A stretch of DNA of 58,060 bases, taken from the NCBI RefSeq assembly GCF_000003605.2, contig NW_003142307.1:298325-356384 (forward strand), given 5' to 3'. A program made the translations under genes and the position numbers. The notes under the pieces are model-generated. The model ran no database searches, had not been told where the DNA came from, and saw only the letters and a program-made list of their open reading frames with translations. Shown here one piece after another: positions 6,456-53,900 of the stretch; the first letter of the stretch is position 1; every line of letters begins with the position of its first letter. Source of the DNA: Saccoglossus kowalevskii. Its lineage: Eukaryota; Hemichordata; Enteropneusta; Harrimaniidae.

Positions 6456-6649
6456 AACAATGGATATTAGAAGTTCTCTTCAGATCTAACGGTAAGGAGC
6501 TCTATAGTTTACCAGAACCGTAACTAAAAGTTTCATGCCCTATATTGAGATTAGCTTTGAGGACATGGCAATCTGCCCGACTTGCTGATTACTGATGTAT
6601 ATCTTTCAGTATCTCTCATTCAGTCGTTTTCTGTTTTTGTTTCAGAAAG

Positions 6650-12612: not shown

Positions 12613-12954
12613 AATAGACCATTTTCCGTACACTGCGAGAATCACGCGTTATGCGTGAAATCGAACGTAAAAACAGGACAAACAAAGGTCACAGCGTCGT
12701 AGTGGCGTCAAACATCGCGTGGGATTCAACAAACGCTTAATAATGTGCTGTCCACATTTGATGATAGGCAATTTCGATTAAGTGAGGGTATTCGAAAGCA
12801 ATATTCCTCTGTCGAAGATCGGCCGGTCGATGTGAGCTACGAAATAAAGAAATTCGAGTTCAAAATCAAATCGTTCGATTTTTGCGGCAGACGTTCGACG
12901 CGCGTCTTTCATGCACTCGCGAGATCTCGCAGTTGAACGGAAAATCACCTATTA
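12613..12954 (+). mobile_element. MITE-like element, family D, copy 1
   Basis: A roughly 340-bp element with inverted ends: AATAGACCATTTTCCGTACA at the left and the complement of AATAGGTGATTTTCCGTTCA at the right. An inverted, near-identical copy lies at 26600-26942. The interior includes GGTCACAGCGTCGTAGTGGC and ACATTTGATGATAGGCAATT. An internal open frame is conserved in both copies, but it is most simply the shared element sequence; no transposase motif is visible. Confidence 0.75.
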
Positions 12955-14922: not shown

Positions 14923-15061
14923 TTAACCTTTTTAAGTAGCTGTGTTCATTTTTTCTACCGTTTCACAACTTTCATAAACATTTCTTTTGTATTTAGTTCA
15001 ACTCTTCTAATTCAGTCATGTTTCTCTCTCTCTTTTTTTAGAAAACACATGTTGAGGAAAG

Positions 15062-18000
15062 ATGGTAAATCTACGTAGACGGATGTTATTCGTTGCATTC
15101 GCCATGTTGGTGCCTTTGCTGTTCACTGTGTTGAACATTGATAAGGGAATAGAAATAACGCACATCGGGGTTGGTCAGAATAGTGATATTGCCCTCAATG
15201 GCAGATACGGCGAGTTTAGGGATGACACTATGAAAGTTGGATTTGACATTGCTGGACACACAAACAGAATTGCTGCAGATGCACCTGGGTACGAACACAG
15301 CACCAGTGACAATCGCGCAGCAGTTGACAGGGTGGACAAGCTAACACGAAACAGACAAGCCAACAGTAGCAATGCCACAATTATGAAAAGGGGGCATGCG
15401 ATGGTTCCGAGTGTTGTGGGTGAGTCTGAACACTCGCAGCACACGTCACTAAAGCAGCTGGACGTCAGAGCATTTGATGATGATACAATTATTCCTTCAT
15501 TAGTCGATAACTCTTCTTACATGACCAATCAGGAATCATTATCGCATGAGATCACAAATAGTTCTAATGCTTTCAAAAAACAGGTTGATCCGAGAGGAAA
15601 TCCTGGCATAACCCTCATTCGGAATGTTGATTTGCCAAGTGGGCAAAACAATCTGAAACAAAATCAAGATATTCACAGAAAGAAAGAGAATGGCGGTGGT
15701 CATGGATACAAGAGAAAAAATGATACAAGTAGAGAAGTTTTTGGCGTTGGAAAAGTAGACAATAATCTCCATGCAGAAGAACACGCTTCTAGGGCGGAAT
15801 TGTTGGACTCGGGTGTGAATAACGATCACACCGCCAGACAAATTGATAATTTACATGAGTATAATAAAGAAAGGTGGGGAAAACAACAGAAAGGTCGTGT
15901 GTACAGATTAAGTGAAACTCAACCGTATTCCGTGAATTGGTGGGACTTGATTACAGAGGGCGAATTCAAAATCCTCGTTGATGAGTTCGCAAATAAGGAT
16001 CTTCGTTTTGGAGATGAGTATCCAGAGTGGTTTAGTCGTACAGATATAATTTGCATGGAAAAGCTGTCTACAAATGATGTCATTGATGCTTTTGTGAAAA
16101 AAGATCACCCACGACTGCGTTTGTTGGTATTCAATAACACGGGTAGTGACCGACTATTGTCGTTTAAAAGATGCACGGACCAGTGCGGTATACAGAAGAG
16201 TACGAGGGACTGGTTCGAGATTGTTTCATTTCACCTGGATCGTGTGATCGGCTTGAAACGAGCATTGCCGGCAGTGGCTCGCATTATCACCGCCAAACCA
16301 GGTTCGGGCTTGTCGATGGACACACGTTTCAGCGATGGGTTGCCACGACCCGTTATTTGGTGGGACCCTGATATCAAGCATGGCGGAGAGTTCATGTTTG
16401 ATCAGAATTCGCTTGATTTAAGCTGGACGGACTACCAGAGAGAGTTGCGGTATAAATGTAACTCACAGACAAAAACGTTGCGTGATTATCATTGCCGAAC
16501 CAAGATTATGAACATCGAGTGGAGTAAACTGGCGATGTTTGATTTTATTTTGCAGGTAAGAAATATTTTATTTGGAGATGCAGTCTTTGGTAACTTGATG
16601 ATGTAAAGCGCGGTGGTCGTCGCGCAGCGCGTGTTCGAATTTCATTTAAATAAACAATGTATTTTACACGCGTTGTATACGTCGCTATGAGTCCCATATC
16701 GAACAGGACGCGGCACGACGACTGTCACCCTTTAAAAACATGTTGGTAACATTTAACAACGTATCAGATATATTGTAACCGACGGACGTGTAACATTTCT
16801 GGCTCCACTCATACCAAATACACAAATACATGTACTTTAAAGCGGGAGGGTCATCACCTGCGCACGCGCGGGAATTGAGTCCCAAGCGATGATAACAACA
16901 CGCGCTAAAAACTCATGGGTAGACGCTTGTTTGTAAACAATGACACGCGAGGACCACCTGACGCATGCGTAGGTGACGACTCCCCCCCGCTTCAAAGCGT
17001 TTACTCATGAGCGCGTGCGCAGGTGACCCGCTTTAATTAATTTATCCGGAATAACATAAATTTGTGTCAAACCAGAAATGACATATAATGCAACTCTGCA
17101 ATCTATTTGTCAATATAACTCCTATTTTCAGATTCACGATCGATTAGACAGAAACTGTTGTGGATATGACAGAGATGAAGGTGAAAATTGCGATTGGAGG
17201 CACGACGGTTGTGATGACATAAACAAACAGTTCCTGGTCCATATCATGGTTCATAAATATAGTGTATCAAGATTAGTCTTCATCGACAATGCTGGCAACC
17301 ACAAACGAAGTAGGGACCATTTGAATTATAGACATTTAAAAGGAATAACAGAGTAAGAAATCTCCTTTAATGTACTAGCATTAAAGGGCGGTAGTCGTCG
17401 TGCCACGCATGCGCGAGATATATGGGTCTCATATAAACAACGATAGCGACTTTGATTGTTGCGCAGAACAACGAGTACAAACGTTACCAAGCTTTAAAGT
17501 GTACACTTTAATTCGGTATTTTTTAGGTGATTGGAAAGTATCCAAAGAGTCACCGGCGGTAATTAGTGCAATTCGCGCCCAGATCTCATACTTGTGATTT
17601 CCTCTAGAAGAGCACATTGGATTGTGGGAAAATCGATGTTTATCAACACAAATGTCGCACATGCGCAGTGCGACGACCACAGTCTACTAGACTAGGCTGA
17701 GCACCCTAGAAACAAACAACACGCAGAACATATGATTTTTGCACACGATTGTACTTGGAAACAATTCTGTCCACCTGCAGTGACAAGATCCAGGGTGGAA
17801 ATCTAATTTACATGCACGTAATATTAACATAGAACACAGGTTTTGAACTCGAAACTACGTATTAAAGTGCACGTCGCTGATGTATGTAGACACACGCCCA
17901 GTTGCTCCATAATGCACCCCCAAAAAGACAGCTTAGATCCTGAATTGTTCGAGTTACGTACATAGGGTTACGAACATAGTTACGTACATATAGTTACGTA

Positions 18001-23919: not shown

Positions 23920-26900
23920 CTGCAACAAAAACAAAGAAATGCAACAATATTGGTAAAGTGCTTTTATGTAAAAATAGAAAAAAGTTAATGACAATGATTA
24001 TTACTACAAGCAAAACTAGACACACAAACTTTGAACTTGGCCAAGTATTTATATTAAATCAGAATATATAGTAAAATAAAAACAGTTGAATAAATATTTT
24101 TTGACTTATTGCACTAACAAGCCAGAGATAACATAACCGACGACAGACACGGCGGACAGAAACTTTCCTTTCCTATACCTTACCCTTCCTCATTTATGAT
24201 TCGGGCAAGGTAAAGGTGAATGTTTCGACAAGAATACCTAATGTATTCACAAAATCATTGCAGTTATCGCAACCACTGTCACATAGTGGGGATTGAACTA
24301 ACCCTGCACTGCTTAAGTGCAGACTTTGCCGTGTTCTTGTGATAACCTCATTATTATACATCGTTTTTCTACTTGTAGTACTAATTTAATGAGAGATGGC
24401 AGCTTAAAACATTTTACGCTGTGCAAAGGTTTACGGTCACCCTATAGCGATTATGTGTGTAATGTAAATAAAGAAAATTGTTGGAATGCCAGGTCAAAGA
24501 TGACTGTTAGTGAAGTTTTGGAATGAATGCAAATTTTCACAGAACAGTGAATTCTGTTGTTTTCAATTCCCACTTCTCAGAGACGGAGATACATCACAGA
24601 ACATTTAATGTTATTTAAAGGCGCACCACTGTACCATGTATTTCCATGGGCTCTGCTCAAGCTGCTGTGGAACACTGGTTGAAAAGCCGTCGAAAATAGC
24701 TAAATTCAAGAAAACAGCACTAACTCAACTTTGAGGTAACCCTGAGCAACCAGATTTATGTTGCACATGTGGGGGTAATTTTGTTACACTGTTCAGGAGA
24801 GTCTCAACAACTATCCCAATGTACTGTTTTCTGAGATTTTTTCGGCTTTTGCTTTCATCTGTGATGGTTGCCTAAAATACCTGGATGTCCGCCCCAAGAA
24901 TACTGACATTGTCGTTATAAGAAACTCCTACAGCGGGAAATTTAGAAATAGATTTTGTGGAACCAAAATATGCAAAACATAGTTGCACAACTCTCTCATT
25001 CTAAAAATAATAGCTATTAAAACTCACCACCACCGTCACTGTTATCTTCTATTTGTTGAACTTCTAGTATTTTCTGTTTTGTCGTCTCCATCTGGTGAAA
25101 AAAAGACCATTTGTTGAATTGATAGATAATGAACAAACAAAAAACTCACTATCAGGGCTTGTGATTGGGTGATGAAGTCACTATCAGGGCTTGTGATTGG
25201 GTGATGAAGTCACTATCAGGACTTGTGATTGGGTGATGAAGTCACTATCAGGACTTGTGATTGGGTGATGAAGTCACTATCAGGACTTGTGATTGGGTGA
25301 TGAAGTCACTATCAGGACTTGTGATTGGGTGATGAAGTCACTATCAGGACTTGTGATTGGGTGATGAAGTCACTATCAGGACTTGTGATTGGGTGATGAA
25401 GTCACTATCATGACTTGTGATTGGGTGATGAAGTCACTATCAGGACTTGTGATTGGGTGATGAAGTCACTATCAGGACTTGTGATTGGGTGATGAAGTCA
25501 CTATCAGGACTTGTGATTGGGTNNNNNNNNNNNNNNNNNNNNNNNNNNNNNNNNNNNNNNNNNNNNNNNNNNNNNNNNNNNNNNNNNNNNNNNNNNNNNN
25601 NNNNNNNNNNNNNNNNNNNNNNNNNNNNNNNNNNNNNNNNNNNNNNNNNNNNNNNNNNNNNNNNGGCTTGTGATTGGGTGATGAAGTCACTATCACGTCT
25701 TATGATTAGGTGATGAAGTCACTATCACGTCTTATGATTAGGTGATGAAGTCACTATCACGTCTTGTGATTGGGTGATGAAGTCACTATCAGGTCTTGTG
25801 ATTGGGTGATGAAGTCACTATCAGGACTTGTGATTGGGTGATGAAGTCACTATTAGGACTTTTGATTGGGTGATGTAGTCCCAATTTCATGACTTGCGAT
25901 CTGGTTAAATTATCATTTGACTATCTTGCTTATTAGTAGAATAACAATTAGAGGTGGTACGTACTTCGTACCTCGTGCTCAATCGTCGTTTCAACAACTT
26001 CTACTGTTCTTATAGACGGTTGTCCAGTTTTCTCATCAATGTACTCTTCAGTTTTTCGTGTTATTTTCTCGTCAATGACCTTTGACCGTTCTTTTCGCGT
26101 TGTTTCTCCGTCTCTGGCATTTATTACGAGTTTCATGTCTCTTTTATCACCTAATGAGATAAGTCAGTTATTTATTTTCATAATTGTACCTTTCATCGCT
26201 GCATCCCAAACTCTTTACTTTTTAAAATTTTAAACAAAGTTAGAGAAATTGTCGTCTGATCAAATAATTTATGAATACACAATCAAATCACATGTTGGGT
26301 CAGGGTAAATCGAGAATTTGAGTAGTGAAAATTTCTTTTCGATCTTCAGGAGTCTGTCGAGTGAAATCTTGTTTTCTCAATCGTCAAAACTATCACCAAG
26401 GACGTCACATTTTCAGGTTCTAATTAAAAATACTCTGGTTATCTCAGAAGAATATGTTATTTAATACAACAAGGACACTGATGTTTTTACAAGCACAAAT
26501 GACAGAAAGATCACACAGAACTGACAGTTTTGTGTTCACATCGAGATATTCAGTTGCCACAAAATTGTGTTCAACATGCCAACTAGCCAGGAACATTTGT
26601 AATAGGTGATTTTCCGAACAATTGCGAGATCTCGCGAGATGCATGAAAGACGCGCGTCGAACATCTGCTGCAGAAATCGAACGATTTGATTTTCAACTCG
26701 AATTTCTTTATTTCGTAGCTCACATCGACCGGCCGATCTTCGACAGAGGAATATTGCTTCCGAATACCCTCACTTAATCGAAATTGCCTATCATCAAATG
26801 TGGACAGCACATTATTAAGCGTTTGTTGAATCCCACGCGATGTTTGACGCCACTACGACGCTGTGACCTTTGTTTGTCCTGTTTTTACGTTCGATTTCAC

Positions 26901-29900
26901 GCATAACGCGTGATTCTCGCAGTGAACGGAAAATGGTCAATTATTTGTTATCTTTTGAGCATAGAACTGTAAAACTCAAGAAAACATATTGGCCTTTGTC
27001 TGAAATAATTGAACACCTTTTAGGACACTTTGAAAGAATATCATCAAATTTCTGGTGTCAGGTGAGCATCTGAGTTTACTAGAAGAATTGAATCTCATTA
27101 TGGCTCGGTGGGCAGGCACACGAATCATTATGACATCAACAGAGCCAAAAATAAATAGACCAATGTCCAGAGATGAATGCCTGCGAACTGAAATTAACCA
27201 ATGCAAAATAGACGAATGTCTGTGAATTGAAATGTACCAATGAGAAATAGACAAATGCCTGAGAACTGAAATCCAGCGAATATACTTTTTTTCCTATATT
27301 TCATATTAAACTCATCAAAAATCAGTGAAAATAAATTCCAAGCAAAACGCCCAAAAAGCCTTTTCAGCGAAAATTAATTCCAGCGAAAATAAAGTATTCC
27401 ACAGTAGACAAATGCATGCGAACTGAAATTAACCAATGCGAAATAGACGAATGCCTGCAAACTGAAATTAACCAATGCGAAAAAGACGAATGCCTGCGAA
27501 CTGAAATTAACCAATGCGAAATAGACGAATGCCTGCGAACTGAAATTAACCAATGCGAAATAGACGAATGTCTGCGAACTGAAATGTACCAATGAGAAAT
27601 AGACAAATGCCGGCGAACTGAAATTAACCAATGCGAAATAGACGAATGCCTGCAAACTGAAATTAACCAATGCGAAATAGACGAATGCCTGCGAACTGAA
27701 ATTAACCAATGCGAAATAGCGAATGCCTGCGAACTAAAATTAACCAATGCGAAATAGACGAATGCCTGCGAACTGAAATTAACTAATGCGAAATAGACGA
27801 ATGCCTGCGAACTGAAATTAACCAATGCGAAATAGACTAATGCCTACAAACTGAAATTAACCGATGCGAAATAGACGAATGCCTGCGAACTGAAATTAAC
27901 CAATGCAAAATAGACGAATGCCTGCAAACTGAAATTAACCAATGCAAAATAGACGAATGCCTGCGACTTGAAATGTACCAATGCGAAATAGACAAATGCC
28001 TGCGAACTGAAATTAACCAATACGAAATAGACGAATGCCTGCGAATTGAAATGTACCAATGCGAAATAGACAAATGCCTGCGAATTGAAATGTACCAATG
28101 CGAAATAGACAAATGCCTGTGAAAATCCAAGCAACAATACCCAACTATAATTCAAACAATCAATGTCAAAAGGCAATATTTACAAATCCGAGAACACACA
28201 GGGGACGCATAAACAAAACAAACAACACACTGTCAAATCGGTGAGAGAAATACATGGACCTCAAGGCACAAACCAAGAGGTGATGTCAGGTGTTTCGAAA
28301 AGAGTGAGCATATCCTGCTCCACATGTGGCAATCGCCATATATCTCTCTGAGTCACAATCGTGAATTTTAGGTCATGTGACTTAACACTCGTAAATTAAG
28401 TTACCTGAGTTTTTGCCATCAAGCATGGGTTCTGGTGTTTTTCTACCAGTACCAAAACTATTCAAACTAGATTGACTACTTTTTTTAATAATTTCTTGTG
28501 ACTTCGCTATCACCATCTGTGCCTTCATAGCGTCCTCGTCAAGAGATTTCATCCTATATAGAGATTTAAACAAAAAGCATTTCAATAAAAAAAATATTGT
28601 AATTGTATAATGAAAATCTAATACAAGTGAAATCTGCACAGTGAAAACAATCTCCAGTCTGTAAAATGAAACCGAAAACATGATACGAATGAAAAAAAAA
28701 AATGCATTAATGTCAGGAACAAATTATGGCAGACTGAACCTAATATTTCATTTCTGGAACATCATTATGTAAATGCAACAGAATCAAAGTAGTCGGTGAT
28801 AAAGGTATGAACCATGCATGGTGATCTACAATGAATATCTTTATCCTCGTCAATTCAACATCAACATCAAGCATCAACCAAACTTGTTCCGACCAATAGA
28901 ATCACATACATTGGTAACCATTGAAAGGTGGATTGGGGCAACACAAATGAACGATGTTATTGTATATTTTGAAAATCAGGGTACTTGTGTAGAATCGTTT
29001 AATTAAGCCATGGATCTAACTGAGACGAGTAATGGTAAAAACTGGCAATGAGTACATTTCAAACAATTGCACGAGATAACTGGTCGGAAAACAATAATAT
29101 GTAAATTACTTCCAATACTTGACTACGACCTAATAATAACAATGAGTCTTTTTTTTTTTTAGTTTTGATTATTTTTGTTTCACTTTTTTAAAAAATTTTA
29201 CTTCTGGCCTATAACACCCAGCACTTCAATATTTGCTAACAATTCTTAGAACTTCTTATGCTTTTGCACAGAAGTAACATAGCAGTTTTACGAACAATCA
29301 AAACTGGAGGGAATAGAACTGGATAAACATTGTAATAATATTTTTGTTTTCCGACCAGTTATTCTAGAAAGTTGGTTTGAAATGCATTCGCTGCCAGTTT
29401 TTATAATTGTTCAACATGATTGGAACCACAGTTGTAAAGGTCCACAAAATATGACCCTGGAGCCGCTAAATCACAGCTAGGTTATAGACCCATTAAAGAC
29501 GGCAAAAACAGGCAACACATAAAGCCTCTATATATAAAAAAAAAAACAGATGAACACAAATCATTATTTTCACAGATTCACTCATTTATAGGTTAGCGAA
29601 TTTTAACAGCCATGTCATTTTATAGATTGTTACTCAATGATTGATTAGCAAGAGCAAATGACAATTTAAGCTCCCATAAGTTAGTGATTATTTAACACAT
29701 CACATGACCAATAAACACAGTCACATGAGTGAAACAGTAGTTAGTGATTTGCAGTTTTACCTAGCAGCTCTCCATGCAGCTTTCTTTTCAGCTTGTAAGG
29801 CCCTCATTTCCGCAGGAGACAGCGACCTTTCACATTCTTCAGAGGTCACTGACGTCATACTACTATTACTCGGACTGACTGCACCTTCGTGTTTCAAGCG

Positions 29901-32900
29901 CTCAAAATACCTTTTTTCTGCTTTAGCCGTTCGCACTTCACTTGGCGTACTAGAGATTGAGCTAAAGCTACAAGAAATCAACGGTGCAGAGTTAGAAGCG
30001 GCAACGACTAGGACTGTTGCGCACACAAACATTGATTTACCACCTAGGCAGAATTGTTAGACACAAACTTATGCAAGAAATTTTCAGCAATCAAAGAGCA
30101 GTGGTCGTATTTTACACACGTTGTATACATCACATGGACGCTGTAACGAACATGAAACATTGCATCGACAAATAACTTTTAAATTCCAGAAGCCATGTCA
30201 CGAATGTTACTGATTTCATGCATCAGAATAAAAAAAAGATTTCTTTGCTTGTATCAGAAGTGCATCTTTAATAGCTGTACAAAATTATTAAACATTCCAT
30301 GTATGGTATACTGGATTATTAAAGATCAACTTATATTAATTTGGCTGCAGATACATTTGTCCTACTAATAGAACAAATACAGTTGAGCACATAATGTTTC
30401 AATTGAAGTTACTTGCAATTTATGCTGCAAAAAAAATTAAAAGTACAATAATTGGTGCAGGTTTCACACTACAGTAAGAATTTGTATTAAGATGCATCCA
30501 TCCACCAAAATAATTCTCTTTATTTGAAAAAAAAAAAAAACTTTTTGCAGGGGATGGCAAACTTTTATTTCGAGGTGTTATTTAATATACAAGAATATAT
30601 ACCCAAGCCTGGAGTTTCTGATTAGAATTTTAGTGAAAACATGATGTTTTGAAATCGCGGACTGATAAAATTAGAGTGAGTAGTCAGCTAGTTCAACTTC
30701 ATAGTTTCAATAGTATAGTAGTTTAATCAGCATTATTTTGGGAAATTTCATGACTGTGGGTTGTATTGATTTAAAAAAACTAGACAAATGATTCCTTTTA
30801 ATTTATGAAAATTTGGAGTACTTGTGAGGAATCTATACATGTAAAATATCCCTACTTTCAAGTTTTACATTGTCATTTATGGGCAGTTTGATTGTACCAT
30901 AATTGTGATACTTTTAGACATTTCACTTTGCTGGTTTAGTCGTTTTGATATTCAATTTGACGCTAAGTTTAAAGCAAAACTAAAATCTTATCACCCAGCA
31001 GTGCTCTTTAACAATATAGTGTAAGGTAAACTGAAAACTGTCTTCGAGAGTACCTTATCTACAAGGAACCAAGAATACACACCCATCACATGACTTGAAT
31101 GCCAGTAGCTGATTGGCTCTTACCTAGTTATAGATGCATTAAGGCTATCTCCAGATCTATTAAAGGAGTTGTCTTCATTCCTCTCACTGGGTGTCACTGG
31201 CGATTCTATATCCCTCTGATATCGTAAGAGTTCTTCCTGAGACATTGACATCATTTTTTTATCTTCCTCTTCTCTCATTTTCGCGAGATCCTCTTGGCTG
31301 ACTAATGCTATTTTTTTGGCTGAGATACAAAATCAGATTTAATAAGATTAGATCGCTGAGATACAAAATCAGATTTAATAAGATTAGATCGCTGAGATAC
31401 AAAATCAGATTTAATAAGATTAGATCGCCGAGATACAAAATCAGATTTAATAAGATTAGATCGCCGAGATACAAAATCAGATTTAATAAGATTAGATCGC
31501 CGAGATACAAAATCAGATTTAATAAGATTAGATCGCTGAGATACAAAATCAGATTTAATAAGATTAGACCGCTGAGATACAAAATCAGATTTAATAAGAT
31601 TAGATCGCTGAGATACAAAATCAGATTTAATAAGATTAGATCGCTGAGATACAAAATCAGATTTAATAAGATTAGATCGCTGAGATACAAAATCAGATTT
31701 AATAAGATTAGATCGCTGAGATACAAAATCAGATTTAATAAGATTAGATCGCCGAGATACAAAATCAGATTTAATAAGATTAGATCGCTGAGATACAAAA
31801 TCAGATTTAACAAGATTAGATCTCTCCCATGATGTGGAAAAATGTGCAGTTACAGTCTGGTTCACACACACTGCCAGAATAAGACATATTTTATCATATT
31901 AGTTTTGTTGACTCAAATTAATCTTTAATGCATGTATTCAAAAGTATTATAAAATAAATGTTAAACTTTGAAAAACAATTTAAAATTTTTGTTCTGGGTG
32001 TGGTAAAACTTTTTTTGGGGCCTCATAAGATTTCCTAAATATTTGACGTTTTGATTCTCGTCAAAATAATTAATCTGTTGGTGCCATATGAGGATGTATA
32101 ATCTAAACTTGTATGTTCTTTTTAAACTGTTATTGCGTAAGAAATCCATTTACAGAAATATTAGCTTTCACAGTTTAAGCACCGTTATCAAAATCTGTCA
32201 CCTTCAAAAAACAAAACTGCAGGGCTTTCCTGAAGATTTGGATCAGAAGACTCCATTCACAAAAGTCGGTGGCTGAATGATATTATTTCTCACACAATAG
32301 TCAGCCAAAAAGTCATAATGGACAAGAGTAGACAACTTATTATAACTGTGTTCATAGGAAAACTTTGATGTCAAATATGACCACCAAATATTCTTAGCTT
32401 TGTACATTTTTAATATTTTCACTACCAGACTTTCTTGCCCAATTTTTTTCGGCAGTTTTTTTCTTTTATTCTTCAATATTTCTGGAAATGAACCCTTATT
32501 TTGGAACAAACACACAAGTCAATTTTCAGTTTTCACTCAAAAAATTTTGATTTTCTGATGAAAAAATAGAAAAAGTGGTGAAAAGGTTTACACTGATCGA
32601 ATACAAAACAGCTGTGAAGATGAAGTGCATTATGGGATAGCAATGCTGAATTATAATAACCTTACCTTGTGTGTCAAGTGACTCTGGATGAACTTGTTGT
32701 TCTATTTTTTTCTCAAAATGTTTTTGTTTTTGTCTGAATGAAAATTTTTCTGGTATTGGGTCATTTTTGTTGTCAATTGGAGGCTGCAAAAAATTTACAA
32801 TAAAAATAAGCATGAGTGTTGGAAGTCATTCTTGTGTTTTGTGCATATTTATTATTTTTTTCAAAGGAAAGAAATTCCTGATTTTGCATGTACATGTACT

Positions 32901-38900: not shown

Positions 38901-41900
38901 CCCTTCTTTTTCTATCTTGATTGTATCTTCTTCTCTTTGACGTCGAAGCGCTTCCTACAATTCAAAATGAAAATAAAGTTTGAAAGTACGAACAAACAGG
39001 ACACAACACGCAGTACAACTAAAGCTGCAAGACAATTGACCTTCGACCCTTTCACCGCTATTGTCCACTTTCATCAATCTTCTCAAACAAAACAAATATG
39101 AAAGTTCAAAATTGAAGCAAATGTACATTTCAGCAAAATATTAGAATGATCATATTCAATCAGCTGGATGCATAACTGAATAAATCTTAATTCAGGAAAT
39201 CATGAATAAGTGAATTATCTGGACGAGAAAGGGTTAAAAGTTCAATGCACGCAGCTGTGCACAGAATATACAGCATCACGAGTGCTGACGCAGAGGAACA
39301 CGGCCAAGACTGTCTATCTGGGAAAGAGGTTATTTGGTACGTTCATACACCTCATATCCCATTCGGTGTTGTGTACAGCATACCAATCACAGAGACGACC
39401 AAATATGGTCACAAATACAAAATCTTACTAGAAATAAAACTCGCGTTATTGTAGAATAGTACTCAGTTCTTGAAACAGATCAAATGTGCATGACAAGCAC
39501 AAGCGACAAGGACAATTTTCACAGTGCATTGGCAGTGCTTTGTTGTTGTTTTTTTGCGATTTCTCAGAATCACAAAACGTTCATTGTCTGAACAAACCCT
39601 GTACAACATTATTTCAACTCCACAACGTTTATAAATATGTCAGTCTCGTAGGTTTGTGCGAGTTAAATACCTTCATGAATAATTCGGTCATGCTTTGTGA
39701 CATCACTTGAAACGAACTCCATTTCAGCTGTAATTTATTTTAACTGAGTTGGTTAATTTTTTTAAAGCGGGAAAAGGAATTTTCACTAGATTTTATTTTC
39801 GCTTCAGAAATAAATTTCAAGTGAAAAAAAGTGAGTATTCTATAGTATTTGAGGGTCAGCGTATTTTCCCCATTATTTACGAGAATCTGTTAAAAGTTCA
39901 GTGACCTTTAGTTATTTTGCTGCTTTTGAATTCGAGATGAGTTTCTGAGATGCAAATCTGCCGACGATAGTACGCAAGTCTTCTTGTATAACTATCTATC
40001 ACATACAGGAAATCCACAGAAAAATCTCTACATTCACATTGACATAGTGAGGTTATTAAAACCTTTTTGAAGCATATTAACCCTTAACGCTGGTCAATGT
40101 AAAAGTACATGAACTGGGAAAATTTGGGTTAATTCGTGCCCAGTGAAAAACTGATTGGAAAATACATTTTCATTATTTTGATGTACGCTAGGAGCTACCA
40201 ATAGTGAGCACAGGGTTACACTGAATACACAGTGAAGTGCAATTGATACGATAGACTGTTTCTCTGTGATACACAATATAACAGGTCATTTCCCATAACC
40301 CTTGACCTAGAGGTCGTACTTCCTTGTCACGCAAGAAAACAATTTTAAAGCTTTATACCAAATTTTTTCAAAACAATCTTGTATGTTTTCAGCTCAGAAA
40401 CAAATAATGGTGGAAAAAAATTCTGAGAAAATAAATTTATACGGGCAAACATTTTGTTGTAAGAAAAAATTACGACGAAGTTGAAGGCGAAGAGAGTTTA
40501 ACATGGAACCATATACCAGAAAGTGTTCCAGGATGTTTGACCTCTGCATCATGGAAGGAAATGAAACCCAAAATATATATTATGAGGTGACAACAGTACA
40601 AACAAAACCACAAGTTGGTCAAAACATGGAGTCAATAATGAAATTTGGTCCAAAATAAATTTTGAAAAAAAAATTTTTGCACGGCATTCAAACATTAAAA
40701 GTACAAATTTGATACGGAAGCCAACAATGTCAAGTGGTACATATGATTTAATTTGTTGATTGAAATGTGAACTTTCGTTTGTTCACAAATGATTAACGAT
40801 TAACACCGTCACAGCGCCATTTGCATACACTGCGCGAGGCACAATGTTGGCGAGAAGTTGCTTTGTTTGTAGTGACATCACAGCATGTCATTTATTTACA
40901 TGATAGTAGACCTATCAGGGAGGAGTAACGTGCAAGATGCCTAATATTTACAAAACACTTTTAATCAATGTAAACAAATACTACTCTCTGATTTTGACGA
41001 TGAACTCGTAAACACAAATATCAAATAAATGTCATTTCGTTGTATTTTACCTTCACGTAAGTCTGTGTGTAATATACGTAGTAAAAGAAGGAAAAATTAC
41101 GTCAGATCATGTTATTGAAATACGAACGACACCAACACTATACCAATGACTAAATTAAAAAAATAGTTGCATTCCTTATGACAGCTACTAAGATTGGGAG
41201 AGGGTACTACTGATGATGAGTGTAGTTTTGAAAGCACTCAGGATTGAGAGTTTCTGGAATCACAAAGGAGGTAATTTGCATGTCCAAATTGGTTTGGTAC
41301 AACATACGGTGCACTCACATGCAATACTGCAAGTCTATCTGGGATACATCACAGTTTGGAAGGTTAGAAAAGGGAGTAGGGGTGGGAAGGTAGGTGAGAG
41401 GAGGGATGCAGCAACTGTTCATCATGTGGCAGCATGTATTCTGAGGAGAAAGGGAGATTTTCTTGCATCATCAAAAATCATGCATGCATCAGTCAAGTGC
41501 TATAGTTTTAGCAATATGGAAATTGGTTCATACCAAGTATAGAATTGGTTCATACCAAATATAGAATTGGTTCATACCAAATATAGAATTGGTTCATACC
41601 AAATATGGGAATTGGTTCATACCAAATATGGGAATTGGTTCATACCAAATATGGGAATTGGTTCATACCAAATATGGGAATTGGTTCTTACCAAATATGG
41701 GAATTGGTTCGTACCAAATATGGGAATTAGTTCGTACCAAATATGGGAATTGGTTCATACCAAATATGGGAATTGGTTCATACCAAATATGGTAATTGGT
41801 TCATACCAAATATGGGATTGGCTCATACCAAATATGGGAATTGGTTCATACCAAATATGGGAATTGGTTCGTACCAAATATGGGAATTGGTTCGTACCAA

Positions 41901-44900
41901 ATATGGGAATTGGTTCATACCAAATATAGAATTGGCTCATACCAAACATAGAATTGGTTCATATCAAATATGGGAATTGGTTCATACCAATTATAGAATT
42001 GGCTCATACCAAATATGGAATTGGCTCATACCAAATATGGAATTGGCTCATACCAAATATGGATTTGGCTCATACCAAATATAGAATTGGTTCATACCAA
42101 ATATAGAATTGGCTCATACCAAATATAGAATTGGCTCATACCAAATATAGAATTGGCTCATACCAAATATAGAATTGGCTCATACCAAATATAGAATTGG
42201 CTCATACCAAATATAGAATTAGCTTATACCAAATATGGGAATTGGCTCATGCCAAACATGGAATTGACTCATACCAAACATGGAATTGGCTCATACCATA
42301 TATAGAATTGGCTCATACCATATATAGAATTGGCTCATACCAAATATGGCATTGGTTCACACCATATATGGCATTGGTTCACACCAAATATGGGAATTGG
42401 CTCATACCAAATATGGGAATTGGCTCATACCAAATATAGAATTGGCTCATACCAAATATGGGAATTGGTTCATACCAAATATGGAAATTGGTTCATACCA
42501 AATATGGAAATTGGTTCATACCAAATATGTGAATTGGTTCATACCAAATATGTGAATTGGTTCATACCAAATATGGGGAATTGGTTCATACCAAATATGG
42601 GAATTGGTTCATACCAAATATGGGAATTGGCTCATATCAAATATGGGAATTGGCTCATATCAAATATGGGAATTGGTTCATACCAAATATGGGAATTGGC
42701 TCATACCAAATATGGAATTGGCTCATACCAAATATAGAATTAGCTCATACCAAATATGGGAATTGGCTCATGCCAAACATGGAATTGGCTCATGCCAAAC
42801 ATGGAATTGGCTCATACCAAACATGGAATTGGCTCATACCAAATATAGAATTGGCTCATACCAAATATGGCATTGTCTCATACCAAATATGGGAATTGGC
42901 TCATACCAAATATGGGAATTGGCTCATACCAAATATAGAATTGGCTCATACCAAATATGGGAATTGGTTCATACCAAATATGGGAATTGGTTCATACCAA
43001 ATATGGGAATTGGCTCATACCAAATATAGTATTGGCTCATACCAAATATGGGAATTGGTTCATACCAAATATGGGAATTGGTTCATACCAAATATAGGAA
43101 TTGGCTCATACCAAACATGGGAATTGGCTCATACCAAATGTGGAATTGGGTAATAACAAACATGAGACATGTACCTATATAAAACAAATCATTTGACGAG
43201 TTGATGCTAACCATTTGGGGCAAACATGATCTGGTTTTAAAAAATTCTTCTTTCCCATTTTCCATGAAAACTTTATTTTTTTATTTTCAAAATGCTTTCC
43301 AGAAAACCCTGAATACTTCCAAAAGCTAAAGAGAAAAGACAGCTCTTACCAATTTTTTGAGATCTTCTCTTTCCCAAGTAGCAGACACCTCCCTCTGGAA
43401 GTCAGCATCCTATTTATAGAATAGCATGCAAATTATCAATTATACATGCAAATTACAACCTTTCACCTCTATCCCATGATTCCAAGTAAAGATGGCTGAA
43501 GTGCATGGTGTATTAAAGCCATATTGGAAATGAGAGTGTGCTCTAGAGTGAAAATACAGCGTGAGCTAAAAAGTAAATAAAAACTTTGCAACATCACATG
43601 CAAGACAAATATCACTGAACAAGCCCCAATTCACTGACACCTAGCACATGCTGAAAAAATATTTAAAAAATGTCATTTATAATTTTGGCCAGTACCAGGA
43701 GCCATGTAGCTGTTACTGTAGTGAACATAATCATCATGATTATAAGCCTGGCCATGGCGCCGCCACCTTTCCAACTCGATTTCTGGAGGAAAGAAACAGC
43801 ATGCAAATAAATGCTTGGCTGTGGATAGGAAAAACAAATTTGGAGCAGCCGTGATTAGTTTTCTGTATATAAAAGTTCGCAACTTTGCAAATATGGGAGT
43901 ATGGGAAAATCACGACATTTTGTAGTAGACTGGGGTTTTCTGACATTTCGTCTTGCGAATGTTCAAAAATTATCAAAACACAAAAACTGATCAGGGGTTT
44001 ATCCTGTGTGTCAAAACTTAGATTTTTATTTTGTCTAATTCTATGAAAAATATGGACCAGGGACAGACTGTAATTTAAACAATTTGTATTCTATACTGAG
44101 TGGAACTATTACAACGTCAATTTCTCATGTCGGCGATAATTTCATGGTATTCGTGGCGAATTCCGACTCCCAAAAATAACAAATATTTGTCTTTCGTGTT
44201 CATTTTTCTTGCTTTAACTTAAATATACATGTATACACTGGTACCTTAAGCAGATGAAACAGCCAAAATATTTGAAAACTTGACCTACACAGAATTGGAG
44301 TTTGCATAATGTGTGAATGAAATTCTTTGCACGTTTCTCGTCATCAAGTTGGTTGGAAAAAAAAGATATCATTAACGATTTATTCATGGTGAATGAAAAA
44401 GAAATCATGGTGTCAAAAAAATTGCTTTGCTTACTTCACACCTGGGCAATCACATGGACATAAAAATATATCATGGCTACTGACAGTTTTGTTTTTAATA
44501 TTGTCCAAAGTGACGTCTCCACATACGCAAGATATTTATTCTTGTACAAGTGTTTGCATTATTGAGGCTTGCTCACTCAAAGCAAAAAAAATCAAATGAT
44601 TCAGTATGATAATATTTGCCCCCAATGCCAGAAAATAACAACATGCAAACCCAGTCAAATGAACGGCTACAAATGAGAAAATAAAAATAAAAATAAATGC
44701 ATTCAAAAAAAGAGTTTCCACTAAATGTTCTCAGTCAAGGTGGTGCTCAGTACATGCAAATATTCATATTAAAACATTGGGGTCCAAAAAATGACACTCC
44801 AAGCGTTATAGCCAGTATAATGCACTACGGCCGTCGAGTCTGCACGTTGTATCAAGCCTTGAACAATGATAAGCATTACCAGTTATAATAGGCAAGAAAC

Positions 44901-47900
44901 AAGCAAATAATTCAGTTTGTGACGATAGTAATACTTGAATTTTGTGTATTTCTTAATAATTTTTACAGAATTCCTGGAAATATTCCGCAAGCTCAAATGA
45001 ATGATCTTGTCTTGGAGGAAATTTCATTTTAGTTTTTGCAGAGTCTTAACATAACATGAATTCCCTTTTCTTGCAATGTTGTACGTGTGATGCATTTCAG
45101 TTGAGAGATTGCGAATAATTTTGCCGGCAGATGGCCAAGAGAACCACTTTTTGTCCGAGTAAAGAAAGAAATAGGATGGGTCAATCAGCAGAAGAACAGT
45201 AAATGGAATGTCTGAGAGTAGGTTGGAGCAAACCTTATTCATTTGAGTGAAGAAATATCTCTTGAAAGAGGATGGGTCATCCTATTTTTTGTGCAGGAGA
45301 ACAGCTAGCATAACAGTGGATGGACATCAGAGATATTTTCATGCATGAAAAGAGAGAGGAGGGTGAAGCAAAACCAAACTTACCTGTTTCATAACGTGGA
45401 GATCTTCCTGTGATGTGTCTCTGTCTATTGAGCATATACTTTCTTGGCTTGTTCTGGTTGTTAATGGGTTGGAAATGACTCCAGCAGTACCGTGTAACTC
45501 AGCGACTTTGATGGGATCATACCCATCACATACTAAAACAATAAGTTTCTCTCCTGCACTGCGAAGTGAACGAACAGCTTCTGCGTGTGTGGCACCGAGT
45601 AAACTTTGATTATTCACCTGCAAATTGATTTAAGAAGTCATAAGATAATGTCATTTGTGTTTGGGTCACATGATAGCATTCAGGTCACATGGTAATGTTA
45701 AGATAATGTCATTTGTGTTTGGGTCACATGATAGCATTTAGGTCACATGGTAATGTTCAGGTCGTTTGGTCACGCTCAGCTCATAAGAAAACTGAATTAG
45801 TAATTGTTTCTTACCTCTAAAATTCTCATTCCTACTTTCAATCGTCCGTCTCGGCCTGCAGCTCCCTGTGAATTGACCTGCGAACGGTAAAATGCATGCA
45901 TGATCATGCTGCTCAAAACAGAAGACACTATTTTTTTTTTTTGCATCACTGGCATCCAGCGAATCATGTAAAACGATTATTTGCACTTTCCCGCAGTGAT
46001 GTACATGTGTGACATTGTTCAATAAAGTACAAAATCAACAATATGGGAAAATGGTTTGTTACTTCGTTACTATAGAAACGCAAGAGATGACAAGTACGTG
46101 TATGTACTGCATATGCGCAGCTGACTCTACAAAGGTCACAAAGGTCAAGCAGATATTTACTCCAGCGCATGTCGAGAGTTTATCGTATAGAAAGTTAACA
46201 CTGTTCATATCATCAATGCAGTTTTGATACTCTAAACGCATTCATTATTGACTAGCTTTCTTCATCTTTGCTGATACGTGTAATCCATGTGAACATAACA
46301 TCAGAACTCATTGTTTCCCTGCCAAGTTTGTGAAATTAAAACCCAGTGAAATTGCTCAATACATCGAAATAGTGAAATCAAATGTCACTGAATATAAATG
46401 GTTTATGGTATATGGGTCGTTCACCAATAAAAAAAAAAAGATTTGCTATGTTCTAAAAAACTTCATGATCAGTCACAGTCTATTTGAGCAATATACATTA
46501 ACATCATGAACACTCTGTCATTTCCGTGATCACAGAAACACTTTGCTGTTATTGAGCACAAATGATTGGAAAGGTATAGTAACTACCTTTGATATAAAGA
46601 TACCCTCGTCACTCTTGTCTAATGGGTTGCCAGGGTGACCTTTACTGTTGCCAGGGTGACCTTTACTGCCGCCACGGATACTAATTCCTAATTTGTCGCC
46701 TGGAGTCTTGTGAATATACACTTCCTATAGAAATAAACAAGCATTCATTATCATTCACATTTGTAGTACTATGCATTGAAACAAAATTTCTAGTCAGAAT
46801 AGTCTTCTAAGATTGTTTGTCCTCGTACTAGTATATTACTCTAACATGACAAAGAAACCGAAAATATGCCATACGGGAGTGTCTGCTCAAGTTATGCAAT
46901 GCGTCCATATCTACCATGCCTTGTATTTAGCTATTTATATGTTTTTAAAATATAAAACTTGTTACAAATATGGCAATTCAGCAATAGTATAGAGCAAAGC
47001 GCATTTTACCTCTAGTCCTTCCGGTGGTGGGTCGTGTCTTACTCGCAACACTATCCTTTGTCTGTTCTCGAGCAGTGCGGACACGGCAAACTGATGTGTC
47101 GCTGCCCTCATATCTTTGTTATTCACCTAGTAAACAAAAACAACAACAATTCAACATTTTTATGTTATATTTTATTTTTAGGAGCCAGCCAATCATAATT
47201 ATTATCTTGGTATGCAATGACAAACTTAATCAACCCTCTGAACGTCAAAGCAAACTTTCATAATATTTCACAGAATAAAGACCTCAGCAGTTGATGCGTT
47301 AAAATGATCCAAATATGAATATTTCTGATGAATATTTCTAAAAGTAAATTTACTTACCTCAAGTATTCTGTCGCCTATCCTGAGTGGCGTCTTAGCAGCA
47401 GCACCATCAGGCACAATCTGTTGATAAAAAAAAAATGTATAATCACACTGTTACAGGTACAGTAGGAAATAGCAGAAAGAGAAATTTTTATTGAAAAATA
47501 CTGTATTTGCTCTACTGTAAAATACTTAAACAATAAGCTTCTGCATAATAATTTTCGCTATTTTCGCTGAAGGAATGATTCAGTGAAATTAAATCCAGCG
47601 AAAATACTTTTTTTCCTATATTTTACATTCAACTCAGTGAAAATAAATTCTATATGAAACACCAAAAAAGTCTTTTCAGTGAAAATTAATTCCAGCTAAA
47701 ATAAAGTATTTTACAGTATTAGTTGCCCAAAGTTGTTTCTGTGGTCAAAGTAAGTAATATATTGATGACTCACTACACAGCATATGTGTTTTTTGGATTT
47801 ATAAGCGCATCTAATAGAGTAAATACGGTAAGCAAACATAGAACTACATTTACATACAATCGGTTTCAAAAAAGTACACAGAATGACAGGCTTGACTCTC

Positions 47901-50900
47901 CGTGAATAACGGCCAATAATTATCTTCCAACATTGTTTTGTAATTTAAGCAGAACAAAGTGCATTTGAAAGTTGAAAAGTCACATGTTCAAAATTAACAG
48001 GTACATGTGTATGTATTATGCTTTTCAAGATGGCCGACGTCACACAACAAGAATTGCAAAAATGAGCTCCCCAAGCTACTGTTAAAAAAATCCTGCTAAA
48101 CTTTGCTACAGGTTCACATAATAGTTGAAAAAAATTCTCTGAAAATGTTGAAATGTAAATAATTATGAACAGATAAATCTACACAAGACAAAATGTGTCA
48201 ATGTGCAAATCTAAACAAAGCAGAAAACAGATCAGTCATCTGTGAGAAAAAAAATACACGGTTGATGTTTCATACCTTTGATATAAATATTCCTGGCTCA
48301 TCTTGACCGAACGGATGACTTGAGTGGTCGCTACCGCCAACGATACTTAACCCAAGTGGACCGCCTTGTCGAACTAACACAACCTCCTGCGTGAGTAAAA
48401 TAAAACATTGAAAAATAAAGCTGATCACCACAGAAAGACAGTTCGCGGACTCATCATTAGCGTTTGCAAAGATACGTTGTCAGAAAATATTCTTGCAGTG
48501 GGAGCGATAAGATTACCTCTTCTTCGAAAACTGGCGTCTCAGGTTTCTCATCTTCATCCTCCTCGTCCTCCTCTTCCTCATCATCACCATTTTCGATATG
48601 ATTCACCATGGCAACCTCAACAGGTTGTGATTGTTTAACTGGTGGGGAAACAATAATATTAATGGTAAACGAAAAAAGAACATCAACATATGATGATCAA
48701 GCACAATCATCAATATATATAAATGTTTAGCTAAGCTCATGCAATTGCATGTTTACTGCATAGAAATGTTGCATACTGTAATATATTAAGAATGACAATT
48801 ATGCTAGGGAGTCAGTAGTTCATTGTAGTATGTTATGAATGACAATTGTGCTGGGGAGTCCGTAGATTTTGGGAGTACGGGCAGTCTGGAATAAAGCTTG
48901 GACGTGGCCACACGTGTTGCAACAGTGTTTGTCTTTATTGACTCACAAACATTACACATACCACAGAAAATGGTTCCCTCTTTTCATTACAAATTTTATT
49001 TATAGTCTGCACTTTGTCACAAAAAGACAAAAAAAGCCCAATTTTTTGTGTAAAAACTGAAAATTGACTCAAATTTTGTCTGTTGGCTCCAAACTAAGAG
49101 TTCATTTGAAGAATATATAAGAAAATAGTGCAGAAAAATTAGGGTAAGAACCTCTGGTGGTGGAACAGTAAATCAACCGATCAATTAACAATTTTTCAGC
49201 TGGGGCGATGTGCAAAAAAATTTGGCCGAGAAAGTCCGGTAGTGAAAAGATTAAAGTTAACAGCTATATAAAGCATGTATAAATGCGAAAGCGCTGCATG
49301 TTGGGAAGGATTATGTAATAAATTAGGTTCACAACATTAACGTAATGTATAAGGATGCATACATAATGAGCCGTCATGTCAGCAAGACTGCACAAACCAC
49401 ACAAGACAATAACTCACCTTGAATTTCGGGTTCTTTGACTTCAACAGACTCCCTCAATATCGTCAACGATATTTGATTTGATGATGTCAGTAAGGAAACG
49501 ACTTGATCGTGCCTGGCATCGGTCACATCAACGGAATTGATCTATCACAAGAAATTGAGAAAATTGCTCCGATTTAAAAAAAAAAATCGACAGTTTCATG
49601 CACTGGACACCACAACTTTCATAGTGATTGCTTGGAATTAGATTAACATATTTGGAAAAACTAAAAAAATTTAAAAATTACTTATTTTAAAGCGGGGGGA
49701 GTTGTCACCTGCATATGCGTCAGATGGCCATAGCATGTCATTGTTTACAAACAAGCGTCTGCCCATGAGCCTTTGCGTTTTTAGCGTGTGTTATCGTCGC
49801 TTGAGACTCAATTCCCACACGTGCACAGGTGACAACCCTCCCGCATTAACAATGGAAACATCTATGGTTTTGTCAAACATAGCTATCTTGTCTTTTGCTT
49901 AGCAGTTTGCGTCTACAAAACAAAGTTATCACCGTGAACAACGTTGTTTATACCTGTCATTTTATTTCACAGTCAAAGTGGCAATTTTTGCAAAAGGGCA
50001 TACTGTAGAATACTTTATTTTCGCTTGGAACTTATTTTCGCTGAAGGAATGATTCAGTAAAAATAAAATCCAGCGAATATAGCTTTTTCCCTATATTTTA
50101 CATTTAACTTGTCAAAAATCAGTGAAAATAAATTCCATACAAAACACTCAAAATGTCTTTTCAGCGAAACTTAATTCCAGCTAAAATAAAGTATTTTACA
50201 GTAGTACATATCAGATCTGACTTAGATGTACCCAATTATGATTTCTAGTAAAGATCTAAACACATTATGGTTTTTATGGTTGGAAAGAGAGGCATATATA
50301 AATGCGCGTAATGAGCCATTTCCAAGCATATCTGAGAAATATAGCTGCATGTTTACACAAGCAGGAAGAAAACAACATCATGCCCTTATTTGGAAAAATG
50401 TCGAACATTGGAGAACTGTGAGAATGATTGGACACTGATGAACTGGAAATAGAAATGTAACAAGCAATCAGTTAGGCTATACTTACTGCAATTATTTTGT
50501 CTCCTATTTGAAGTATGCCCTCAGTGTCAGCTTTACCACCTTCTGCAATTCTTGATATATAGATAGCCTGCAGAAACAAAAATAAATAAGATTCATTCAC
50601 AAAATAATCGCAAATGTGTAAGGATGGCCGCAGAAACGTGAATACCAGAAATAAGATTCATTCACAAAATAATCGCAAATGTGTAAGGATGGCCGCAGAA
50701 ACGTGAATACCAGAAATAAGATTCATTCACAAAATAATCGCAAATGTGTAAGGATGGCCGCAGAAACGTGAATACCAGAAATAAGATTCATTCACAAAAT
50801 AATCGCAAATGTGTAAGGATGGCCGCAGAAACGTGAATACCAGAAATAAGATTCATTCACAAAATAATCGCAAATGTGTAAGGATGGCCGCAGAAACGTG

Positions 50901-53900
50901 AATACCAGAAATAAGATTCATTCACAAAATAATCGCAAATGTGTCAGGATGGCCGCAGAAACGTGAATACCAGAAATAAGATTCATCCGAGTTACCAATA
51001 TAGCGTTACTACAATCACATGCGTGTCTCATTTACACTCAAAATAATCATAAATGTATTTAATGTAACAGTTAAAGAACCCGTGTCTCATCATTAGAATC
51101 ATCTCCTTACAGCAAATATTAGGGCTTGCTCTGTCACGAATTTGACCGACAGTTTGTGAATACCAATTCTGCACTTTGCTGTAACACAACTGCTTGGCTG
51201 GCTTAGCAATGAGATTTGAACTCCTAATCTTCCACATGCAAAGGCCAAACACTCTACACTATGAAGTTCCCCAACAGATATTATATACACTTCAAAAATC
51301 ACCAAAAATACATTTTTGGAAGATCAACTCTGAAATCTATACAGGCCAACTATATCTACAGATATATACAAGTTTAATAGCAATTGACTAAATATTAAAG
51401 GAGTTATCGTGCCTACAAGAAAGCTTACGATGACAACGATACTGGATGACAGAAATGTTACCACTACTATGACAAAAAAGTATTGGTGGATTGGGATGTT
51501 TTCATTTCATTTCAAGACGAGTAAATTAACATTAGATGTAAAGTAAATTAAATTAGTAAATGTCTTAACAATGTTGACCTATGATACTTTATTACGGTAA
51601 CAATATATTCCAGTTACTACTCTAACTTGATATCACTTACTTCATCATTTCCCCTGAACGGCGTTGATCCAGTGCCTCCAGCAATACTGAAACCCAAACC
51701 ACCTTTCTCATCACGATTCAGCGTGATGGTTAATTTCTAGAAAAATAACATAAAGATTATTTAGATATTACTTTTAATTAATCCTGTGACTTTGTCTTGA
51801 TTGATTGATTACCTTATTAAATCTGGAATTCAGGTAACAAATATTTATTTGACAAAAATTAAAAAATTTAAATCGTGTTTGAGCAGAACAATATAGATTG
51901 AGGACAAGAAACACAAACTTATATAACAAAATATGAGTATGAAGTAAGAGTATTAATTTATCAGAGAGAAAATGATCAACAGGCACAAGTAAACTAAGTT
52001 ACTGTAAAAGCATTTATATTTCACTGGCAATTCAAATTTTAAATTCAAAAATTTTCTACTTAAAAACTTTGTTTTATTGTAATTTGACATTTTTTACATG
52101 GATCTAATTAAAATTTCACTTATCAGTAAAAACTAAATTAAAATTTAGTGAATAATTAAATATTTAAATCAACCATAGTCAAATTTTTGTCATGACTAAA
52201 ATAAAACTTCATATGCAAATATGCCGTTAGTTTTTCAAAACACTTTCTGAATTCTAACATTTCTACAACGGATGGTGCAGATAATTTGTAAAATAACTCA
52301 CGTCCATTACAACCTGCACCTCTGGTTCCGGTGCAAATGAAACTTGACTTTTTTTCTCAACAGGTGGCTACAAGTTGAACAAAAAACATCCCGATCAGTT
52401 AGACTTTGCTTCATAACATAGACTCAATGGAGGATGCATAAATTTACATCCGTATCATTAATATCCGACTTACTTATGACCATGACCAACACCAATCCAT
52501 TCAAAAGTGCAGTTTTTCGACAAACAATTTCATTCTCACTGTTTCTGTAACTTTAACTTATTTTAGCTTAATATATACTTTATATTTATCACATAATTTT
52601 AAAATATTCAAATTTAGACTCTGAATTTGACAAAAGCTGTGCTGCGGCTATACGATATACGAGAGGAGGAAACTTTATCTGTAGCACTCTCGTTCATAGT
52701 ATTTTTCTGCTGTACTTCCAATGTACTCTGGAAAAATACTTGTCTAACATTAAAGTTATTGATTACGGTAAAACTTGAATAAACTAATGTCGCTAGACTC
52801 ACCGGTTCTTCAGAGGGTGTGTAAACTTCCCGAGACACAGCCATTCTGACGGTGTTACCACTCTTTCGAAGTGCATCAACAGCAATCAGATGGTCGGCAT
52901 TTAACAAATTTACATTATTTACCTGAAAAATAACAATCATAATAAAAGGTTAAACACATCCTTTACTTTAACATAACATGCAACATGCATGTTTTCACAA
53001 ATACTATTTGAACTGTCAAAATATCTTAACCTTTACACCACCAATCCACAAAATAGTCATGTTTATACAGTCTGCACTTTCCTTCAGACAATTGGGACAA
53101 AAATAGCGAAATATTTTGAGTAAAAAATGAAAATTTACTCAAATTTTGACTGTTTAATTCCAAAATTAGGGTTAATTCCCAGAAATAATGAAGAAAATAG
53201 ATAGCTGAGATAGCTCCGCTGTTAGCAATGTACATTTCAATTAAAGAACTGAAGATATCATCAGAAAATGAACAATATGTATCGTATCAAAGCAATCGGA
53301 CTTGCTGTTTTCAATAAGAATTCGAAAACGGCGCTTTTTACTAAAAATTACAAAAATATTCACCAAAATTAGAGGTACATATACACCAAGTATCAAAGCA
53401 TTGATGCTTGTAGTTTTCAAGAAGAAGTCAAAAAAGTAAAAAGTTTACACGGACGACGGATGCCAGACGATGGACAATCACTCATATAAGCTCTGCTCGA
53501 CAAAGTCAACAGCAGAGCTAAATAAAGTGCCGAAAAATTTGGGTGAGAAAGTCTATTAGTGAAAAGGTTTTTCTGGCATTAATTGTTTAATCAGTGAAAC
53601 ACAAACAAGAAAGCAGTAATTCAGCTTGGTTTATCCGTTTGTTAAATTGAACAGCATATGAATAAATTTTTCAAGTCATACTCACAGAAATCAGTTTATC
53701 TCCCATCCTCACACCAGCTTTAGCTGCGGGACCATCTTCGGCAACTCTGGATATAAATATACTCTAAAGACGAGAATAAATAAAACTAAAATTAGGAAAT
53801 ACTCAAAATATATGATAAGTGTGGGTTTGAAATTTTTGTATTTTGCAGGTAAAATCTGATCCAATGTTGTTAATGATGGTTATTGTGTACTTAACCAACA

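Follow-up and report, generated by a model that had tools for sequence, protein, structure and literature searches.

Minisatellites that lie at exon-intron boundaries have been described in lancelets (Branchiostoma) as mirages, with examples in Adh3, BflGb6, BflGb9, troponin C, and PGBD5 (PMC3087553, PMC3902484). In the available text of these papers, unit sizes are 150-160 bp in BflGb6, 157 bp in BflGb9, and 10-72 bp in Adh3, with BflGb6 occurring as two haplotypes of 6 and 3 units (PMC3087553), and the repeats at PGBD5 splice sites measure 60 and 108 bp and vary in copy number between assemblies (PMC3902484). Adh3 data and RT-PCR of the globins suggest that regular splicing is undisturbed, though many of the repeats hold AG or GT signals (PMC3087553); likewise, the Adh and troponin C mirages are cited as being without aberrant mRNA, and the same was inferred for PGBD5 (PMC3902484). 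Since the available text mentions no NMD inhibition alongside the published RT-PCR, products that had decayed could have been missed. Elsewhere, internal tandem repeats have changed the exon/intron layout of recent human paralogs and have at times switched on cryptic splice sites (PMC2812944), and competition among acceptors is familiar from tandem NAGNAG sites (PMC3250501). A literature search covering titles and the starts of abstracts returned no description of a 3′ splice-site array of 14-copy order.

The locus described here was found in the acorn worm Saccoglossus kowalevskii, in a window of 58,060 nucleotides (the whole stretch of DNA analysed) with a G+C content of about 36% (mean of rows), taken from a draft assembly with 192 N bases. 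Its features, named in transcript orientation, are the following:

32666..32783, minus strand: preceding mapped coding exon, ending ACACAAG/GTAAGG and supplying the phase-1 G (from the sequence)
31320..32665, minus strand: host intron of 1346 nt, with an acceptor-like AG of high score standing alone before 32554
31319..31822, minus strand: tandem array of 14 x 36 bp, each unit with CTAAT, a T-rich stretch, and CAG or CGG (TRF and unit table)
31787..31822, minus strand: unit 1, at the left end of the array, with flank AGAGATCT against joint CAGCGATCT
31319..31354, minus strand: unit 14, which gives the real acceptor its AG, with a pyrimidine stretch and a branch-like CTAAT ahead of it; the unit's final base is also exon base 1
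31124..31319, minus strand: coding exon of 196 nt, phase 1 at its start, donor TAG/GTAAGA (from the sequence)

TRF placed the 36-bp array at 31319-31822 of the minus strand, with 14.0 head-to-tail copies, 98% matches, and zero indels, and a unit-by-unit table (n = 14) gave the consensus GATCTAATCTTATTAAATCTGATTTTGTATCTCAGC. Deviations from this consensus affect 6 of 504 bases and are every one A>G: a single change in unit 1, a single change in unit 8, and in units 2, 9, 10, and 11 a change that turns the terminal CAG into CGG. The unit ends accordingly read CAG in 10 of 14 cases and CGG in the other 4, and nine of the 13 extra (non-terminal) units retain CAG as duplicated splice signals. The A of the branch-like CTAAT sits 28 nt ahead of the final G of the unit, and the AG of unit 14 is the acceptor of the open 196-nt exon 31319-31124. 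The array stops at exon base 1 (31319) and runs no deeper into the exon, and one matching base can be chance. The near-identity of the units suggests an array that is young or homogenised. A first-pass annotation of this DNA had reported the 14 units with ten CAG and four CGG ends, the CTAAT with its spacing of about 28 nt, and the supply of the exon's acceptor by the last unit, all of which the unit table and TRF bear out; it was also right that an array is present and abuts the acceptor, and its array end at 31828 overshoots the actual one (31822) by 6 nt.

As far as the available text of the lancelet papers describes them, the mirages resemble this locus as minisatellites at an intron-exon boundary, with several copies bearing AG or GT and one authentic boundary at the array edge. 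The 36-bp unit falls within the 10-72 bp of Adh3, and the PGBD5 repeats are likewise described as abutting splice sites directly. Unlike the BflGb6 mirage, whose units include exon sequence, the present unit includes a single exon base, and it is present in 14 copies. Among the systems compared, the lancelet mirages come closest, differing in that the unit here is almost purely intronic and repeated 14 times; membership of that class is not claimed, since the boundary-spanning character rests on one base. The human paralog repeats likewise represent minisatellites that change gene structure, but they lie in segmental-duplication genes, and their available description contains no array of complete acceptor modules. 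Tandem NAGNAG acceptors share with the array the competition of more than one acceptor for one exon; their sites, however, are 3 nt apart and would share one branch point, whereas each AG of the 36-bp array has its own branch-like motif.

The identity of the host gene was approached through its other exons. The ORF 45339-45629, around exon 45617-45384, matches PDB chains of 'Protein scribble homolog' (E = 2.6e-11), three of its four PDB matches being scribble and the fourth a designed protein (0.00015). A Pfam scan of eight ORFs gave PDZ matches in three exon ORFs, all below the curated cut-off, and none for ORF 45339-45629 or for the ORF of the array exon; two more PDZ-like exon pieces were recognised by motif, near 51700 and 54636. 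These PDZ exons, all on the same strand, point to a Scribble-like gene, and exon 31319-31124 is presumably the conserved Scribble C-terminal segment, by analogy with the human protein. Within the PDZ exon starting at 46724, an in-frame 21-bp duplication (46626-46668) repeats Ser-Lys-Gly-His-Pro-Gly-Asn. Past the mapped 3′ end of the gene, two related FAM198-domain ORFs on the plus strand (6596-8338 and 15056-16606) look like a tandem gene duplicate. Near-identical ORF segments (WRQTSRGIQQTLNNV...) at 12703-12936 (plus strand) and 26583-26852 (minus strand, within a Scribble intron) are probably dispersed repeat copies.

When the reading frame is carried on from the phase-1 G, all 13 junctions to upstream units yield Ala-Ile-stop or Ala-Val-stop, and unit 14 alone stays open, in agreement with the first-pass annotation, where use of an upstream CAG was said to bring an immediate stop. 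The predicted product from each of these 13 ends thus carries a premature stop, a feature of an NMD-coupled poison acceptor. Two minus-strand frames of 196 aa each are open across the array; its inclusion in frame as a coding repeat was rejected, as the phase-1 G leads to a stop at all 13 upstream ends. Recursive splicing was also rejected, because CGATC or CGGTC, neither of them a 5′ splice site, comes directly after each unit end and makes a zero-length exon impossible. Masking of the decoys by RNA structure was unsupported: the stretch 31860-31124 (737 nt) folds less stably than every one of 20 shuffled versions (z +3.95), as would be expected of array RNA whose unit cannot pair with itself. 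As a check for a foreign or mobile source, 30 bases of the unit were sought in viral contigs, with no exact match; the test is weak, since near records may be omitted.

Acceptor strength was scored with a position matrix built from 14 other mapped acceptors of the gene, which is small and rough. With this matrix, the real acceptor (unit 14) scores 5.26, the upstream CAG units score 4.45 (eight of nine) or 5.81 (unit 7), and the CGG units score -0.15. The other acceptors range from -2.34 to 11.59 when each is left out in turn, and 10 of these 14 stand above the real array acceptor. Among the AGs of the gene region, arrays included, 121 of 1488 equal or exceed a plain unit in score. The AG before 32554 (TTTTTCTATTTTTTCATCAG), about 110 nt past the donor at 32666, reaches 10.19, well above the real acceptor, and reading on from it runs into a stop nine codons further. 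A 39-bp array (27405-28123, 18.5 copies, with a second block at 27171-27272) lies well inside a Scribble intron and accounts for 15 of the best 22 AGs listed for the intron 28404-26151 (scores of 5.1 to 11.4); its units, most of them higher-scoring as acceptors, adjoin no mapped exon. Acceptor-like sequence is common in this gene, and a score by itself is therefore no proof of use. The choice of the last unit is not deducible from sequence alone, because nine decoy CAG units score nearly as the real site does.

What the copying of an intron end would yield by default can be gauged from the rest of the gene. The last 36 nt of an intron commonly hold the branch point, the pyrimidine tract, and the AG together, and in nine of 14 other mapped introns a yTnAy motif lies 12-35 nt from the splice site, within the last 36 nt. 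A tandem copy of an intron end therefore tends to give full 3′ splice-site modules, and their presence is no evidence of design. One unit length in three is divisible by three by chance, and since 5756 of 11958 frames (48%) of random 36-mers from the gene region contain a stop, a stop after decoy use is roughly a coin toss for in-frame units.

For the placement test, seven intronic arrays of the gene were each placed at random within their own intron. Of 21 TRF rows, those with a unit of at least 20 bp and two or more copies qualified, and the 32-bp array, whose two rows flank an N gap, counted as one; rows that were exonic, of short unit, overlapping, or outside the gene were dropped. This 32-bp minisatellite (25146-25880) occupies most of an 880-nt intron, with the N gap at 25523-25664 inside it, and a 23-bp minisatellite (41513-43164, about 73 copies) sits midway in the 9.8 kb that separate mapped Scribble exons. 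The exon map is partial: a PDZ piece near 54636 is unmapped, the donor of exon 48386 is unplaced, and the 9.8-kb and 2.3-kb introns may hide further exons. Contact of the 36-bp array with its acceptor has P = 0.0012 in the 1346-nt intron, or about 0.008 after correction for seven arrays. A 65-bp array of the same gene (50584-50986, 6.2 copies) stops 16 nt short of acceptor 50567. Its P is about 0.025 (17/671) when the intron is started at a PDZ exon with its last base at about 51641, which fails correction for seven arrays, and 0.009 if that PDZ exon is ignored. The remaining five arrays gave P values from 0.30 to 0.82; for all arrays other than the 36-bp one, the incomplete exon map makes these values rough. 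The 65-bp unit itself resembles the adjoining acceptor boundary (GTTTCTGC-GGCCATC versus GTTTCTGCAGGCTATC), with the A of the AG missing, and their local alignment scores 22.5. As high a score arises in 121 of 5000 dinucleotide-shuffled units, in 128 of 4932 random stretches, and in 15 of 20000 simple shuffles of the boundary. We regard this resemblance as suggestive.

Taking the sequence evidence together, we consider it probable that the 36-bp array is a young, mostly neutral minisatellite that expanded out of the Scribble intron's 3′ end, and that the exon-proximal acceptor is used through exon definition. The unit comprises the 35 final bases of the intron and exon base 1, since the left flank reads AGAGATCT where the inner joints read CAGCGATCT; a duplication between two AG dinucleotides plus one substitution would give the observed joint. 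One tandem duplication of the intron end could have been followed by slippage or unequal exchange, with growth and homogenisation then amounting to ordinary minisatellite turnover. Under exon definition, recognition across the exon in a 1346-nt intron should favour the acceptor nearest the exon's donor; exon 31319-31124 retains its donor and its interior, so the last acceptor would be preferred. Any use of a decoy would end in an immediate stop and in removal by NMD, which would make it a tolerated leak and not a regulator; such leaky use perhaps occurs at some level. The young, mostly neutral minisatellite is supported by the abutment (P = 0.0012), the near-identical units, the 65-bp array near another acceptor, the modules and stops that a copied intron end yields by default, and the lancelet precedents. 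Against it stand the near-equal scores of the decoys, the single exon base in the repeat where the BflGb6 mirage has exon sequence, the published RT-PCR with no mention of blocked NMD in the available text, and the hint, from the AG-free units of the 65- and 58-bp arrays (both at most 25 nt from an acceptor), that upstream AGs can be harmful, which would make the array costly.

This last hint bears on a non-adaptive load, in which the decoys would be substantially used, long arrays would cut Scribble output, and purifying selection would keep the array short-lived. The near-equal acceptor scores of decoys and real site are in keeping with it, as are the other acceptor-adjoining arrays: the units of both the 65-bp array and a 58-bp pair (two copies, 45641-45757, 23 nt before acceptor 45617) are devoid of AG (probability by chance 0.054 and 0.078, respectively); the AG-free zone before acceptor 50567, next to the 65-bp array, measures 439 nt, the longest within 25000-57400. 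Upstream AGs could thus usually be purged near acceptors, and such purging, if real, counts against a harmless 36-bp array; however, the AG-free test covers two arrays only and was devised after they had been seen. The four CGG units could be decoys in the course of being lost, but all six changed bases are A>G and units 9-11 may reflect one event, so that the independent events number perhaps four, not enough to establish selection on the AG from the unit variants. The lancelet papers, in their available text, also report no aberrant mRNA (PMC3087553, PMC3902484). We regard a load of this kind as unlikely.

The first-pass annotation had favoured a tunable splicing sink, in which CAG units compete with the real acceptor, NMD destroys the decoy products, and the number of units sets the Scribble dose. 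The 13 stops at 13 upstream ends and the nine units that keep AG with scores near that of the real site fit this proposal, and array RNA less structured than its shuffles (z +3.95) probably leaves the sites accessible. Stops and modules are nonetheless the default expectation of a copied intron end, the real acceptor lies below 10 of 14 others, and the stronger AG at 32554 and the 39-bp array show similar acceptor-like decoys within the same gene; copy number bears no sign of selection, and for the lancelet mirages normal splicing is either reported or inferred in the available text (PMC3087553, PMC3902484). The sink is left without support and appears quite unlikely. Its extension to a copy-number-dependent ladder, in which every added unit would bring a branch point, tract, and AG leading to a stop, and minisatellite length would set the amount of full-length Scribble mRNA, varying between individuals or even cells, is very unlikely.

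There is also a small chance that the copy number is an assembly artefact, the true number of units being different or the array being present in one haplotype only. The draft state of the assembly (192 N), the gap at 25523-25664 within another minisatellite of the same gene, and the lancelet PGBD5 repeats, which number 2 versus 7 and 3 versus 6 copies between assemblies in the text available (PMC3902484), speak for such an error. The distinct unit variants, on the other hand, form an ordered pattern, and an array of 504 bp should be short enough for a single long Sanger read or long reads. Finally, a start of the exon elsewhere, with scanning from one branch point always selecting one fixed upstream unit (the first-pass annotation had named scanning to a fixed unit as an alternative), is scarcely credible: first-come rules favour early transcribed splice sites, but any of the 13 choices would end the protein two residues on and leave the C-terminal part missing from every transcript.

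Regulatory control of the Scribble-like gene by the 36-bp array is unsupported. If the last of ten near-identical acceptors is used cleanly, the locus would be a natural experiment in which branch point, tract, and AG are insufficient and exon context decides; if the decoys are used, the length of a minisatellite would be tied to the dose of a cell-polarity protein.
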